Position numbers and translations under genes: made by a program. A DNA stretch of 64,000 nt, taken from NCBI GenBank assembly GCA_002816455.1, contig MUCR01000012.1:1-64000 (forward strand), given 5' to 3'. Shown piece by piece: positions 2,381 to 51,960 of this stretch (position 1 is its first letter; the number at the start of each line of letters is the position of its first letter). Under the pieces are notes generated by a model. The model ran no database searches. It was given only the letters and a program-made list of their open reading frames with translations, and was not told the origin of the DNA. The DNA is from SAR202 cluster bacterium Io17-Chloro-G4. GTDB taxonomy: Bacteria > Chloroflexota > Dehalococcoidia > Lucifugimonadales > UBA3495.

Positions 2381-3169
2381 ATGTCCCTTTCAGGCAAAGT
2401 AGCCATCGTCACTGGTTCCAGCCGGGGTATCGGCAAGGCCACAGCCTTGGGCTTGGCCAGGGAAGGCATCAAAGTGGTGGTCGCCGCCCGGTCGGAGGCG
2501 GAGCGGCCCGGCGTCCCGGGGACGATCCACGAGACCGTTAGCGAGATACAATCCGGGGGCGGCACGGCCCTGGCGGTCCGTTGCAACCTTCGGGAGGAAG
2601 AGGACATACTCGCCATGGTCCAAAGGACGTTGGAAGCCTATGGCCGGGTCGACATACTCGTAAATAATGCTGGAATAGGCAGCTACCGGCCGTTCTTGGA
2701 GACCACAGTTAAACAGTGGGACTTGGTCATGGACATAGACCTGCGGGCCCCATTTATTTGCTGCAAGGCGGTGGCTCCGGTGATGGTTGACCAAGGCAGC
2801 GGCAGCATCATTAACGTCTCTTCCCACGGCGCAACCAATATCTACTCGTCCACCTTGGGGGAAGACCGGGACGCTGGCATCGCATTGGTGGGCCAGGAAT
2901 ACGGGACCGCCAAAGCGGGCCTGGAGCGCTTTTCTTGGGGTTTGGCCGCCGAGCTTGGCCCCCACAACATCGCCGTCAACGTGTTGAAGCCGCTCAGGCC
3001 GGTGATAACCGAGGGTTTTCGGGCCCAGCGGCCCGACGGGGATTTTTCCACATGGGCCACCCCGGAAGCCATGGTCAAAGCAGCCATTCACCTGGCCAGG
3101 CAGGACGCCCACGGCCTAACCGGCGCGACTGTTACCGCCGAGGAACTGGTGCAACGGTTGGGGCTGTAA
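2381..3169 (+). CDS. SDR family oxidoreductase
   Basis: TGSSRGIGKA nucleotide-binding motif, NNAG, YGTAK; start chosen at MSLSGKVAIVTG inside the longer ORF. Confidence 0.9.
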   Translation: MSLSGKVAIVTGSSRGIGKATALGLAREGIKVVVAARSEAERPGVPGTIHETVSEIQSGGGTALAVRCNLREEEDILAMVQRTLEAYGRVDILVNNAGIGSYRPFLETTVKQWDLVMDIDLRAPFICCKAVAPVMVDQGSGSIINVSSHGATNIYSSTLGEDRDAGIALVGQEYGTAKAGLERFSWGLAAELGPHNIAVNVLKPLRPVITEGFRAQRPDGDFSTWATPEAMVKAAIHLARQDAHGLTGATVTAEELVQRLGL

Positions 3170-3287
3170 ATCTGCTGAATTGCCAACGTTGACAGCTAAT
3201 TACCTCTACAATACGCTGGAGGCGCACGCAACGCGGGGAAGTTGCTCATTTACGTATTGTGGTTGTTGAGATTCCAGGAGAGGACAC

Positions 3288-3500
3288 ATGAGTTCGACTT
3301 ACACCGCTTTGATCCAGCATGACGGCGATTGGTGGATTGGTTGGGTTAAAGAAATCTCCGGGGTAAACTCCCAAGCACATTCCAGAGAAGAGCTTATGGA
3401 GAACCTTCAGTCGGCGTTGGGAGAGGCACTGGAATTGAACTGCAAAGATGCGGAAGCTGCGGCAATGGAAGGATATGAAGAAGTGAGTTTGACTGTGTGA
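3288..3500 (+). CDS. hicB: HicB-like antitoxin
   Basis: 70 aa, YTALIQHDGDWWIGWVKEISGVNSQAHSREELMENLQSAL pattern of HicB; overlaps the downstream hicA-like ORF by 4 nt. Confidence 0.75.
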   Translation: MSSTYTALIQHDGDWWIGWVKEISGVNSQAHSREELMENLQSALGEALELNCKDAEAAAMEGYEEVSLTV

Positions 3501-3685
3501 GACGCCGGAGGCTACTAGCCTATCTAAGGAGTCATAATTGTACGCTCATCCGAGAAGGCTCCAGGCATTCATGGTGGGGTAATGCCGAGAATGACCGCAG
3601 GTCCGCAGTGCCTAGGCACACTGAAACTCACGACTTATTGGCCCGCAAGATTTGCCGCGACTTCGGGATACCTCCGCCGCCATAA
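3497..3685 (+). CDS. hicA: HicA-like toxin
   Basis: 62 aa, LLAYLRSHNCTLIREGSRHSWW and C-terminal LARKICRDFGI typical of HicA. Confidence 0.75.
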   Translation: MRRRRLLAYLRSHNCTLIREGSRHSWWGNAENDRRSAVPRHTETHDLLARKICRDFGIPPPP

Positions 3686-3700
3686 TATTCACATTCGCCT

Positions 3701-3769
3701 CAAGAGGCCCACGGTCTAACCGGCGCCACAGTTACCGCCGTGGAACGGGTGTAACGGTTGAGGCTGTAA
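3701..3769 (+). pseudogene. Degraded duplicate of the 3' end of the SDR gene (copy of 3101..3169)
   Basis: Ungapped alignment at exact offset 600 bp with about 9 mismatches in 69 bp, including the stop codon. Confidence 0.85.
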
Positions 3770-3785
3770 CAATAAGGAGCCAAAC

Positions 3786-4922
3786 ATGGACTTTAGCCTA
3801 ACCCCTGAGGAGCAAGAACTGCAGAAGCGCGTACGGCGCTTGGCTGAAGAGGAGATTGCGCCCATTGCGGAGGAGGCCGACGAGTCCAGTCGGGTTCACG
3901 CCGGGCTGATGTCCATCTTGGCCGAGAGCAATCTGCTGCGCTACTGCGTGCCCGAAGAACACGGCGGGTACGGGATAGACGTGACCAAGCTTTGCATCAT
4001 CAGGGAGGAGCTGGCCCGAGTTTCAGCCCAAGCGGATACCAACTTCATTATGCAAGGACTGGGTAGCTACCCAATAACACTGGGCGGCACAAAAGAGCAG
4101 AAAGCAAAGTACCTGCCTCCCATCGCCGACGGTAAAGCCATCGCCGCTTTCGCCTTGACCGAGCCCACTAGCGGCTCCGACGTCATCAGCATGAAGACCA
4201 CCGCAACGTTAGAAGGCGATGAGTGGGTGCTGAACGGCAATAAGAAGTTCATCAGCCAGACCGGCGACGCCAGCACTTACGTGGTCTTCGCCAAGACCGA
4301 TCCTGAGGCGGGCAGCAGGGGACTTTCGGCCTTTATCGTGGAGCAAGGAACGCCTGGATTTGACGATAGCAAGCGCATGGATCTTATGGCGGCTCACCCC
4401 ATTGGCGAGCCAATCTTTGAGAACTGCCGCATCCCCTATACTAACCTGATAGGCGAGCGGGGCCAAGGACTGCGCCTGGCTTTGGGCACTTTGGATACCT
4501 TCCGTACCACAGTGGCAGCGGCGGCGGTGGGCATGGGTCAGGCTGGCTATGAAGCGGCGTTGGAATACGCTAAGAACAGAGAGCTATTCGGCCAGCATCT
4601 GAGCGACTTCCAGGCGACCCAGTTCAAGCTGGCCGACATGGCCGTGTCCCTAGAAGCCGCCAGGCTGTTGGCCTATAGGTCGGCTTGGTTGAAAGACTCG
4701 GGGCAGGAAACGGTGATCAAAGAGGCGTCCTTTGCTAAGCTGTTCGCCACTGAGGCGGCGTCCCGCATCATAAACGAGTCGGTGCAGATACACGGGGGAG
4801 CAGGACTGGAAAAAGGCGCCAGGATAGAGCGGCTCTACCGTGAAGTGCGCGCCCTGACCATCTATGAAGGCACCTCGGAAATACAACGACAGACTATAGC
4901 CCGGCAGTTGCTGCGGGAGTAA
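3786..4922 (+). CDS. Acyl-CoA dehydrogenase
   Basis: Full-length ACAD with FALTEPTSGSD and YEGTSEIQRQTIARQLL motifs. Confidence 0.93.
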   Translation: MDFSLTPEEQELQKRVRRLAEEEIAPIAEEADESSRVHAGLMSILAESNLLRYCVPEEHGGYGIDVTKLCIIREELARVSAQADTNFIMQGLGSYPITLGGTKEQKAKYLPPIADGKAIAAFALTEPTSGSDVISMKTTATLEGDEWVLNGNKKFISQTGDASTYVVFAKTDPEAGSRGLSAFIVEQGTPGFDDSKRMDLMAAHPIGEPIFENCRIPYTNLIGERGQGLRLALGTLDTFRTTVAAAAVGMGQAGYEAALEYAKNRELFGQHLSDFQATQFKLADMAVSLEAARLLAYRSAWLKDSGQETVIKEASFAKLFATEAASRIINESVQIHGGAGLEKGARIERLYREVRALTIYEGTSEIQRQTIARQLLRE

Positions 4923-4935
4923 AGACCCGGTTAAT

Positions 4936-4998
4936 TAGCCACAGAGGCACAGAGATTACTTCGTCAGAATCTCTGCGCGCTCTGTGCCTCTGTGGCTA
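4936..4998. repeat. Intergenic inverted repeat of the CACAGAG family
   Basis: tagccacagaggcacagaga ... tctgtgcctctgtggcta. Confidence 0.8.
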
Positions 4999-5031: not shown

Positions 5032-5322
5032 CTACGCCCCGTCGACGAAGATGAGGCCGCTGTCGCTAGTGCTAATTCTTTGCCCCACCACCGCTTGGTA
5101 CTCCGGCGAGTTATACCACTCTTTGGCTTTGGCCAGGCTCTCAAATTCAAGCACAACCATCCCAGACGGAGACCAGGTGCCGTCGGCTACTTCAATTTTG
5201 GTGCCGCCGGCCACGCGCTTTCCACCGTACTGGGCTACCGTCGGCCCGGCCGCTGCCCCATAAGCCGTGAAACCATCTGCATCGTTCACCTTTTGAATTG
5301 CGCCAATTACCCATGCTGCCAT
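5032..5322 (-). CDS. DUF1330-family protein
   Basis: 96 aa; GQYGGKRVAGG, FEFESLAKAKEWYNSPEYQAV. Confidence 0.8.
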   Translation of the reverse strand: MAAWVIGAIQKVNDADGFTAYGAAAGPTVAQYGGKRVAGGTKIEVADGTWSPSGMVVLEFESLAKAKEWYNSPEYQAVVGQRISTSDSGLIFVDGA

Positions 5323-5444
5323 TTTGAGTCTCCTTGTTCGATTTCAGGTGATTATTCAATTCGGCCGGCTCGCTCGACCGTAGAGGGCGCATTTTCATCG
5401 GCAATAGATGCGATGATCTAAAACCGGCTGTGTTGAAGTAGGGG

Positions 5445-5735
5445 CTATTCTGCGACGAACAGAGTGACGGCGCTGTCGGTGGAGTTTATCCGCTGATTGA
5501 CCACCGCTTGATACTCAGGCGAGTTGTACCATTTTTTGGCTGGATCAGCGCTTTCAAACTCGAAGAGAATGAGGCCCAATGGAGCCCAGCCACCGTCCAA
5601 CGGCGTCACTTCTCCACTGAAAAATACCCGCTTTCCACCGTATTGTCCGATGGTGGGTTCCACCACATGCTGGTAGGCTTCGAATGCCGGTCCATCTTTT
5701 ACTCCGTTTACTACTCCCATCACATATCCTGGCAT
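5445..5735 (-). CDS. DUF1330-family protein, tandem paralog
   Basis: 96 aa; GQYGGKRVFFSGE, FEFESADPAKKWYNSPEYQAV. Confidence 0.8.
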   Translation of the reverse strand: MPGYVMGVVNGVKDGPAFEAYQHVVEPTIGQYGGKRVFFSGEVTPLDGGWAPLGLILFEFESADPAKKWYNSPEYQAVVNQRINSTDSAVTLFVAE

Positions 5736-6893: not shown

Positions 6894-8834
6894 ATGGTAA
6901 ACCAAGGGCAAATCGACCACTTGCTGCAGGAAAGCGGCGAGATTAACCCACCAGCCAGCCTCGTGCAGCAGGTCTACCTCAAAGACCACAAAGAAGCCCA
7001 CCGCCAGTCCATCGAGGACCCGCAAGGCTTTTGGAGCGGAGTGGCCAAGGAGCTGGACTGGTTCGAGCCCTGGAATAAAGTGTTTGAGTGGGACTACCCA
7101 ACTTTTCAGTGGTTTCTGGGAGGAAAGTGCAACATTACCGCTAATTGCCTGGACCGGCACTTGGCCTCAGGCAAGCGAAATAAGGCGGCATTTGTCTGGC
7201 TGGGAGAGGACGGTTCGGAGCGGGTCTACACCTATGGCCGCTTGGCACTGTCTGTCAACCGTTTCGCCAACGGACTCAAGTCCTTGGGCGTGGTCAAGGG
7301 AGACCGAGTTGTGATCTACATGCCACTGACCCCCGAAGGGGCCATCGCCATGCTGGCCTGCGCCAGGATCGGCGCCGTCCATAGCGTGGTCTACGCCGGG
7401 TTCAGCGTCGGGTCTCTTCGGGAGCGAATCCTCGACGCTCAGGCCAAAGTTCTAATTACCGCCGATGCCGGTTACCGCAGGGGCAATAAGGTGGACTTGA
7501 AGGGAATTGCCGACGGCGCCGTGGCCGGCTTGGACGTATTGCAGCACATTGTGGTCTGGCGGCGGGAGGATGAGAAGACCCCCCATAATTCCCCCTTACC
7601 TACGGGGGAAAACAGGGGGGTTAATCCAAAAGAAGTAGACTTCGACGAACTCATGGCCACAAGCAGCATTCACTGCGATCCCGAGGTCATGGACTCGGAA
7701 GACCCCCTATATATCCTCTACACCAGCGGCACCACCGGAAAGCCCAAGGGCGTGCTCCACGTCCACGGTGGATACATGGTAGGCACCTACTACCACTTCA
7801 AGACCTTCTGGGACGTCAAAGACGACGATGTCTTTTGGTGTACCTCGGACATTGGTTGGGTAGTGGGACACAGCTATATCGTCTATGCGCCGTTAATAGC
7901 CGGGGCCACCACCGTATTCCGAGAGGGGGCCATCGACTACCCCCATCCGGGCGTTTTTTATGAAGTGGTGGAAAACTACGGCGTCAACGTGGTATTCACC
8001 GCGCCCACGGCACTGCGGATGCTCATGCGCTACGGCGAGTCCTACCCGCAGCAATATGATCTGCGCTCGCTGCGGTTTTTGACCTGCGCCGGTGAGCCCC
8101 TTAACCCCGAGGCGTTGCGTTGGACCTATGAATTCATCTGCGGCAGCGGAGATTGGGGGCACATCGTCGACAATTGGTGGCAAACGGAAACGGGCGGCCC
8201 CTGCCTGGGCACTCCTGCCACAATTCCGGTTAAGCCCGGCAAAGTTGGCATTGCCTTGCCGGGGGCAGTGATGGACATCGTTGACCGGGAAGGCCAACCC
8301 ATCACAGAGCCGGACAAGGGCGGTCTGCTGGTTATCAAACAGCCCTTCCCTCATTTTTATCGCACCGTATACGGCGAACCGGAAAGGCAGGCTCAAGACT
8401 GGGGCACCATTCCAGGTTGTTACCTGACCGGCGACGTGGCCCTCAGGGACGCCGACGGCTACTACATGGTGGTTGGCCGGGCCGATGATGTGCTTAACGT
8501 GGCCGGGCACCGCATAGGCTCCGCTGAAGTGGAAAGCGCCCTAGTCTCCCACCCGGCGGTGGCCGAAGCGGCGGTAATCGGCAAGCCCGACGAGCTCCGA
8601 GGCGAGACCATTAAAGGATTTGTCACCCTGCGCGTCGGCAGCGACCCCTCCGAAGAGATGGTGGCGGCACTAAAAGCCCACGTCCGCCAAGAAATAGGCC
8701 CTATAGCCGTCCCCGCCGAGCTGGAATTTACCCCAACACTGCCCAAGACCCGTTCCGGCAAAATCATGCGCCGCTTGCTTAAAGCCCAAGAGTTGGGTCT
8801 AGACCCCGGGGATATAACGACGTTGGAGGAGTGA
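6894..8834 (+). CDS. acs: Acetyl-CoA synthetase
   Basis: 646 aa; [42 protein letters not shown]. Confidence 0.93.
7578..7625. repeat. GC-rich palindromic repeat, copy 2, inserted in frame inside acs
   Basis: accccccataattcccccttacctacgggggaaaacaggggggttaat, encoding [16 protein letters not shown]. Confidence 0.75.
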
Positions 8835-8874
8835 CGGGGTTATACTCTAAGTAACGGGACTTGAGAGGCTTACG

Positions 8875-9435
8875 ATGGCAGTACAAGTGTTGCGACGGCG
8901 ATTCACGGTGGACGAATATCACCTAATGGGACAGGTCGGCATCCTGGGCGAGGATGACCGGGTAGAGTTGTTGGAAGGAGAGATCGTAGAAATGGCTCCG
9001 ATTGGCAGCCGGTATCAGGCCACCGTTGATCGTCTCACAGAGCTGTTTTCCCGCCGGGTGGGGGACAGCGCCTCGATCCGGGTGCAGGGCCCGGTCCGGC
9101 TGGCTGGCGACTCGGAGCCGGAGCCGGATCTTACATTGCTGCGAAGGCGAACCGACTTCTACGCCACTGCTCACCCGGGTCCTGAGGACGTGCTTTTGCT
9201 GGTGGAAGTGTCTGACAGCTCGATAGACTACGACCGTGATGTGAAGCTTCCCCATTACGCTCGCCAGGGCGTACCTGAAGTCTGGATCGTAGACCTGGAG
9301 AGAGAAGCTATCGAGGTCTACACTTACCCTGCGACCGAGGGCTACAGCGGGTTCTCGCAGCCGGTAAGGGGACAAAACCTGGTCCCCCAGCACTTTCCAT
9401 CGCTGGATTTGGCCGTGGATGAGGTCTTGGGGTAA
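8875..9435 (+). CDS. Uma2 family (DUF820) putative restriction-endonuclease-fold protein
   Basis: FTVDEYHLMGQVGILGEDDRVELLEGEIVEM, PDLTLL, VLLLVEVSDSSIDYDRDVKLPHYARQGVPEVWIVDL. Confidence 0.85.
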   Translation: MAVQVLRRRFTVDEYHLMGQVGILGEDDRVELLEGEIVEMAPIGSRYQATVDRLTELFSRRVGDSASIRVQGPVRLAGDSEPEPDLTLLRRRTDFYATAHPGPEDVLLLVEVSDSSIDYDRDVKLPHYARQGVPEVWIVDLEREAIEVYTYPATEGYSGFSQPVRGQNLVPQHFPSLDLAVDEVLG

Positions 9436-9469
9436 AGCCCGGCTCGAGTTGGTATCCAGGATGGCCACC

Positions 9470-9565
9470 CTGCTCAAGACTCGCTCCAGCAAAATCATGC
9501 GCCGCCTGCTTAAAAGCCCAAGAGTTGGGCTTGAACCCAGGGATATAACGACGTTGGAGGAGTAG
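9470..9565 (+). pseudogene. Degraded duplicate of the acs 3' end (copy of about 8740..8834)
   Basis: tgctcaagactcgctccagcaaaatcatgcgccgcctgcttaaaagcccaagagttggg...gatataacgacgttggaggag-tag aligns to acs 3' end with scattered substitutions and a 1-nt insertion. Confidence 0.88.
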
Positions 9566-9749
9566 GGGATTATAGGTGGCTATCAATGGTTGACGAAATG
9601 TGCAAATTCGATTTGGGCTATCGAGAGATGCGGCGTGGGTTTGCGACATGGGCGATTCACTGGCGAACTTCAATGAGGACCAGCCAAAATCGGGCCTGCT
9701 TGGGAAATCGGTCCTGACTGATAATAAAGACTGGTAAAGGATCCCCAAA

Positions 9750-51870: not shown

Positions 51871-51960
51871 AGATTAGGTTGAACTAGGACTGTTTACCTG
51901 AGATTAGGTTGAACCAGGACTGTTTACCTGAGATTAGGTTGAACCAGGACTGTTTACCTG
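51871..51960. repeat. 30-bp tandem direct repeat x3 upstream of the sulfite oxidase paralog
   Basis: (agattaggttgaac[t/c]aggactgtttacctg)x3, one mismatch in total. Confidence 0.97.

Follow-up and report, generated by a model that had tools for sequence, protein, structure and literature searches.

Toxin-antitoxin modules occur as scattered chromosomal singletons, and their movement without an attached mobile element is a long-standing question. The closest described parallel comes from restriction-modification (RM) systems, for which insertion with long, variable target duplications of about 100 bp is reported (PMC3031569, PMC3874152); there, the authors also suggest that other post-segregational killing systems might act alike. 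The locus described here resembles such long-target-duplication insertions (Nobusato et al. 2000, as related in PMC3874152, PMC3031569 and PMC1643837) in that a small addiction module without transposase lies between direct repeats, each made up of about 50-200 bp of resident sequence, and in that a relative has a one-copy empty site. In these texts, however, the pattern is described for RM systems, whereas the repeats around hicBA mostly stop at gene ends and several hicBA copy pairs have diverged as functional alleles.

A second parallel is single-crossover or homology-facilitated illegitimate recombination (HFIR; PMC3240628), which likewise places an insert without a recombinase of its own beside a duplicated gene end, with one gene as anchor. 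In E. coli, fragments bearing gene ends were integrated by single crossover with duplications of 109-950 bp (PMC3240628), and in Helicobacter an event interpreted as homologous on one side and nonhomologous on the other sandwiched an insert within a duplication (PMC4615327). The events in PMC3240628 were laboratory events with a marker, whereas the homologous stretches at hicBA loci are shorter and diverged; classical HFIR usually deletes resident DNA, whereas the hicBA cases duplicate DNA. Integrative islands that rebuild their target's 3' end also duplicate a gene end and leave the gene intact, but the hicBA loci have neither integrase nor short core site, use many targets and involve 5' ends too. 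In the minimal mobile elements of Neisseria, varied small cargo, often addiction or restriction genes, lies between conserved genes and is swapped via flanking homology. To our knowledge, duplicated gene ends are not a defining mark of these elements. No report of gene-end duplications around HicBA was found in the literature, and a survey of HicA contexts from 2024 (PMC10865869) is silent on both direct repeats and duplications.

The duplicated SDR gene end and its HicBA-like pair

The window (the whole stretch of 64,000 nucleotides that was analysed) comes from a marine-type Dehalococcoidia genome. The features of the locus are as follows:

2381..3169, plus strand: SDR (short-chain dehydrogenase) gene, intact (Pfam adh_short, E=2e-45)
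3101..3169, plus strand: left, functional copy of the duplicated SDR end, to the stop codon
3170..3287, plus strand: spacer and presumed hicBA promoter region, without counterpart at the empty site
3288..3500, plus strand: hicB-like antitoxin gene, 70 aa, without DNA-binding extension (UPF0150-like, E=8e-4, under the curated cut-off)
3497..3685, plus strand: hicA-like toxin gene, 62 aa (Pfam HicA_toxin, E=2e-5, slightly under the cut-off)
3701..3769, plus strand: right, orphan SDR 3' end, which bears a nonsense change and leads into the native SDR/acyl-CoA dehydrogenase junction
3786..4922, plus strand: acyl-CoA dehydrogenase gene, the conserved downstream neighbour of SDR (Pfam Acyl-CoA_dh_1, E=2e-48)

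The last 69 bp of the SDR gene are present twice at a spacing of 600, with 60 of 69 positions identical (87%) and the SDR stop codon included in both copies. This repeat, the hicB-hicA pair between its copies and the position of the second copy, without a gene body just ahead of the acyl-CoA dehydrogenase, had been named in a preliminary description of this DNA and were all recovered with a repeat finder, self-BLAST (E about 1e-16 to 1e-20 for the 69-bp repeat) and the gene coordinates. The insert between the copies measures 531 bp, and its sole genes are hicB and hicA, which overlap by 4 bp. The orphan copy carries an in-frame C-to-T nonsense change (CAA>TAA), and the ATG of the acyl-CoA dehydrogenase gene follows 16 bp past it. 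The G+C content of the hicBA cassette is 51%, compared with 61% for SDR and 58% for acyl-CoA dehydrogenase. Since bracketing as close as in the window was obtained for 9 of 1500 random 410-bp segments and bracketing was found at 14 of 1235 matched control positions, the repeat is well above chance level. The source genome is a bin that is 71% complete, which might suggest an artefact of metagenome assembly; this is scarcely credible, however, since the two copies share a contig and are distinguished by 9 of their 69 positions, and since the same arrangement is present in many genomes from separate assemblies, some of few contigs such as G010 and G003.

Neither protein of the pair reached the curated Pfam score (HicA_toxin, 25.0 against a cut-off of 27.0 bits; UPF0150, 19.7 against 27.3 bits), and neither was matched in NCBIfam or PADLOC. 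The AlphaFold2 model of HicA (pLDDT 92) has the predicted alpha-beta-beta-beta-alpha, double-stranded-RNA-binding-like fold, and the nearest PDB folds were the HicAB structures 6hpb (E. coli) and 6g26 (B. pseudomallei), with probability 1.00, TM 0.7-0.8 and Foldseek E-values of 0.01-0.08. His24 in the GSRH motif, which we take to be the catalytic histidine of HicA, is invariant across 10 aligned sequences, and the HicB motif WWIGW...GVN..A is conserved in the window, G014 and G010. By predicted fold, motif and gene order rather than by curated score, the pair is HicBA-like. With HicAB/HicBA type II systems it shares the HicA fold, the conserved histidine and an overlapping small antitoxin gene; it differs from them in the antitoxin gene coming first, in the antitoxin lacking a DNA-binding extension and in the Pfam scores below cut-off. 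It is presumably active as a toxin-antitoxin system.

Further repeats were seen elsewhere in the window. A perfect 19-bp inverted repeat with 25 bp between its arms lies directly after the acyl-CoA dehydrogenase gene (4936-4998), and a similar CAGAGGC-type hairpin is present in L006. Two adjoining, similar 96-aa genes on the minus strand (5032-5735) form a tandem duplication, and a 30-bp unit is repeated three times in tandem at 51871-51960 (97% identical).

The SDR gene end in relatives

In Dehalococcoidia bacterium UBA1141 (G001), the only genus-mate compared at the empty site, the SDR stop codon is followed by CGATGAGGAGCCAAAC (16 bp) and the ATG of the acyl-CoA dehydrogenase gene. The SDR genes of the two genomes share 84% DNA and 93.5% protein identity. 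G001 has no hicBA and exactly one copy of the 69-bp segment, as the preliminary description had anticipated for a relative without hicBA. The window's right copy leads into CAATAAGGAGCCAAAC, which matches the G001 junction save for two substitutions; unrelated DNA comes after the left copy. With the G001-type junction behind it, the right copy occupies the site of the original gene end and is now an orphan, with the left copy serving the SDR gene. The only polarised site (n=1) favours the right, orphan copy as native.

SDR lies next to acyl-CoA dehydrogenase in 12 genomes, with a gap of 16 to 1454 bp. Several of these gaps contain other small genes (PIN-domain toxin, GIY-YIG protein, HNH protein and others), and a second SDR tail is present only in the two hicBA carriers, the window and G010. 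A tandem second SDR gene behind hicBA that was almost wholly deleted, the alternative origin put forward in the preliminary description, would leave a degraded SDR end with a nonsense change, as is seen in the right copy. Yet a second SDR gene was found in the gap in 0 of the 12 genomes, the genus-mate has a single copy and no hicBA, and the same anatomy surrounds hicBA at unrelated genes, 5' ends included. By these comparisons such paralog decay is highly improbable and, as far as the available relatives go, refuted at the window locus.

The junction was also seen to be a variable spot in L371, L373, L378, L379, L219 and L220, where the cargo differs between genera and comprises a PIN toxin, a GIY-YIG protein, a methyltransferase fragment and a 447-aa protein.

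In G010, the order is SDR, hicBA, second SDR tail, HNH gene and acyl-CoA dehydrogenase. The duplicated part of SDR runs, in both the window and G010, from CAGGACGCC to the stop codon. This agreement, together with the restoration of the 3' gene end by a second copy, would suit site-specific integration, in which an element of the integrase type would attach at the SDR 3' end and rebuild it, in the way islands do at tRNA genes and certain protein genes. The 531-bp insert, however, holds hicB and hicA only and no integrase, no short invariant core was found within the longer diverged repeat, and many unrelated genes are targeted, in both orientations and at both ends; we consider such integration very improbable. 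In the HicBA tree, G010 groups with G210, which belongs to another family, with support of 100/91 and apart from the window's pair. A single ancestral hicBA insertion common to the window and G010 was ruled out by this grouping, and because of it the SDR end appears either to have received hicBA twice independently or to have exchanged its cargo.

The HNH-endonuclease gene of G010 (L029 / L214; G010:C6, about 607400-609000) is situated between hicBA plus second SDR tail on one side and acyl-CoA dehydrogenase on the other; this SDR end may have taken up two cargos one after another. As drivers, homing nucleases of the HNH or GIY-YIG type at the SDR end were considered and rejected: they are present in G010 and G008, yet missing from most bracketed loci.

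Bracketed hicBA loci and other cargo at gene ends

HicA profile searches across the family, order and class returned 84 distinct loci suitable for testing. A locus was taken as bracketed if hicBA lay between the copies of a direct repeat, the right one at most 200 bp from hicA. Random positions with the same geometry in the same loci served as controls (n=1235) and were placed without regard to gene ends. Bracketing was found at 14 of the 84 hicBA loci and 14 of the 1235 controls (Fisher p=1.2e-10), about 15 times the expectation, in a set in which related loci are partly non-independent and genomes are mostly metagenome bins. Four bracketed loci are probably not gene-end duplications (L226, CRISPR-like; L268 and L273, dispersed repeats; L295, non-coding), and 10 of 84 are bracketed without them.

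The anchor genes are unrelated. SDR, enoyl-CoA hydratase and others are duplicated at the 3' end, and hemL, purB and a Dam-like methyltransferase gene at the 5' end; in G003, a 46-bp repeat (98%) around hicBA lies outside genes. Both 5' and 3' gene ends are used, so the pattern is not 3'-specific. No recombinase was linked to the bracketed loci, nor were terminal repeats of an autonomous mobile unit found there. The initial proposal that a mobile unit had joined at the SDR 3' end and completed the gene with a second copy therefore stands in part: joining and completion agree with the empty site of G001 and the second tail of G010, whereas specificity for 3' ends is contradicted by the hemL, purB and Dam-like methyltransferase cases, and an autonomous unit with recombinase or terminal repeats did not emerge.

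For comparison, 1 of 29 PIN and 2 of 29 ParE loci in the same order were bracketed; hicBA bracketing is above these values, with a borderline difference. In unbiased scans of three relatives, gene-end duplications numbered about 2.5 per Mb. The pattern may extend to other toxin-antitoxin families, since two ParE-type toxin genes lie between direct repeats, one of 164 bp at 91% (L359:1052-1939) and one of 44 bp at 89% (L366:478-1130).

At L226 (G364:C27, about 2600-4202), hicBA was observed beside a CRISPR-like array, both within two copies of a nadB-like 3' end, of which the second runs to the contig end.

Another gene end is duplicated in the window around different cargo:

8736..8844, plus strand: functional copy of the acetyl-CoA synthetase 3' end (gene at 6894-8834)
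8875..9435, plus strand: Uma2-family (putative nuclease) gene (Pfam Uma2, E=6e-29)
9467..9574, plus strand: orphan acetyl-CoA synthetase 3' end (87% over 110 columns)

Uma2 is absent from G001, where both window copies map to a single acetyl-CoA synthetase end; in G055, Uma2 is arranged as in the window and occupies the same place. Polarised sites at this gene are split two against one on the orphan copy being native. In G021, an orphan acetyl-CoA synthetase tail is present about 800 bp downstream and Uma2 is missing on that contig, so the gene end there appears to hold other cargo. Cargo likewise differs at the enoyl-CoA hydratase end: hicBA in G065, two other genes in G063. Uma2 as a driver was rejected: among about 30 Uma2 genes, only the window's has gene-end repeats, and the remaining repeat matches are tandem Uma2 arrays.

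The G063 locus (L213:1317-4654; G063:C58) has a 204-bp second enoyl-CoA hydratase 3' end, and the two genes bracketed by it are unrelated, one being lipoprotein-like.

Extent and divergence of the copies and possible routes of entry

In 11 coding cases, the repeat runs to the gene end or slightly past it. The mean overhang, with lengths taken by hand from alignments, is 11% of the repeat length, compared with a uniform expectation of 50%, and a value as low as 11% was obtained in 0 of 200000 draws. Differences between copies are biased to third codon positions (60 of 113, p=2e-5). The five codons changed in G010 are synonymous without exception, two of them being arginine codons with two altered bases each (CGC>AGA and CGT>AGG), and on these grounds the G010 copies look like two once-functional alleles rather than a duplicate that then decayed. 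Synonymous-only or synonymous-rich divergence was found in G010, G065, G350 and G364; in L033, L106, L108 and L116, 19 of 47 changed codons are synonymous, which is the share given by decay of one copy. Comparison with genus-mates did not separate the native from the foreign copy of enoyl-CoA hydratase.

The favoured explanation, given an even chance, is homology-anchored integration of DNA in which a gene end is joined to the module. Foreign DNA with the SDR gene end and hicBA would enter the cell, and the incoming fragment would be anchored by homology at the resident SDR gene. Integration would then proceed either by single crossover of a circularised fragment or by a homologous joint on one side and an illegitimate joint on the other. 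The product would consist of SDR body and tail, hicBA, and a second tail joined to the native downstream DNA; the SDR gene would be kept intact, the second tail would be free to decay, and no recombinase of the module's own would be necessary. Recombination between the tails would lose hicBA, and the losers would be at a disadvantage since hicBA is an addiction module, so that such insertions would persist better with toxin-antitoxin cargo. The enrichment of hicBA may reflect retention, not mobility: direct repeats are prone to deletion, which an addiction module would counteract.

This route is supported by the one-copy empty site of G001 with the right copy running into the native junction, by the excess of bracketed hicBA loci over controls, by the third-position bias and the synonymous changes in G010, and by the appearance of different cargo at the same gene ends, which speaks for import (SDR in the window and G010, acetyl-CoA synthetase, enoyl-CoA hydratase). 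If donor and recipient are homologous only as far as the gene reaches, the repeat should stop at the gene end, and in most coding cases the duplicated segment, as judged by hand from alignments, does so. Several observations speak against it. The window copies and the empty site are about equidistant over the 69 bp (left copy to empty site 9, right copy to empty site 11, copy to copy 9 differences), which leaves a foreign functional tail unsupported, and at 44-69 bp the repeats offer little length for homologous recombination. The search of sparsely sampled relatives yielded no donor in which SDR and hicBA are so arranged. As for classical HFIR, the deletion of resident DNA typical of it is absent from the window locus, where the native junction past the orphan tail differs from that of G001 by two substitutions.

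Long target duplication is judged a less probable but real contender: hicBA would have been inserted at a staggered or replicating break, duplicating 44-170 bp of resident target, with copies identical at the start and gene-end cases surviving since the duplication spares the gene. The anatomy is that of RM systems, whose target duplications are variable and about 100 bp long (PMC3874152, PMC3031569), and long direct repeats of resident sequence on both sides, together with the one-copy empty site of G001, were found. The perfect 50-bp repeat of G523 over the Dam-like gene start, in which the target supplies the hicA stop codon, suits target duplication as well as or better than homology-anchored integration; the 46-bp repeat of G003 outside genes and the decay-like share of synonymous changes in L033, L106, L108 and L116 also agree with it. 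On the other hand, a random target would predict far fewer repeats that stop at the gene end, divergence is synonymous-only or synonymous-rich in G010, G065, G350 and G364, and the same gene ends are used again by different cargo. With copies ranging from 100% identity in G523 to allele-like divergence in G010 and others, homology-anchored integration and long target duplication may both occur.

The G523 repeat (L275:5450-6100, reverse strand; G523:C55) extends 14 bp beyond the gene start.

We read the bracketing of hicBA as a known kind of gene mobility, now in a toxin-antitoxin family. It would extend the pattern described for RM systems to toxin-antitoxin modules, and it points to an entry route for small addiction modules without a recombinase of their own. 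The statistical link between hicBA and gene-end duplications, together with empty sites and reused ends, makes the question of their movement testable, and the repeats record the entry site and entry age of each module. It is a rather unlikely further step that hicBA modules are recombinase-free mobile units moving between species with a fragment of their last neighbour gene, the fragment giving homology for entry, the duplication keeping the host gene whole and the toxin blocking repeat-mediated excision. If true, Uma2 and other small genes at gene ends in Chloroflexota would owe their positions to this route as well.

In G003 (L182:4624-5830; G003:C2), a zinc-ribbon membrane protein gene is located inside a 126-bp, 97% identical duplication of the 3' end of a FAD-binding dehydrogenase subunit gene.
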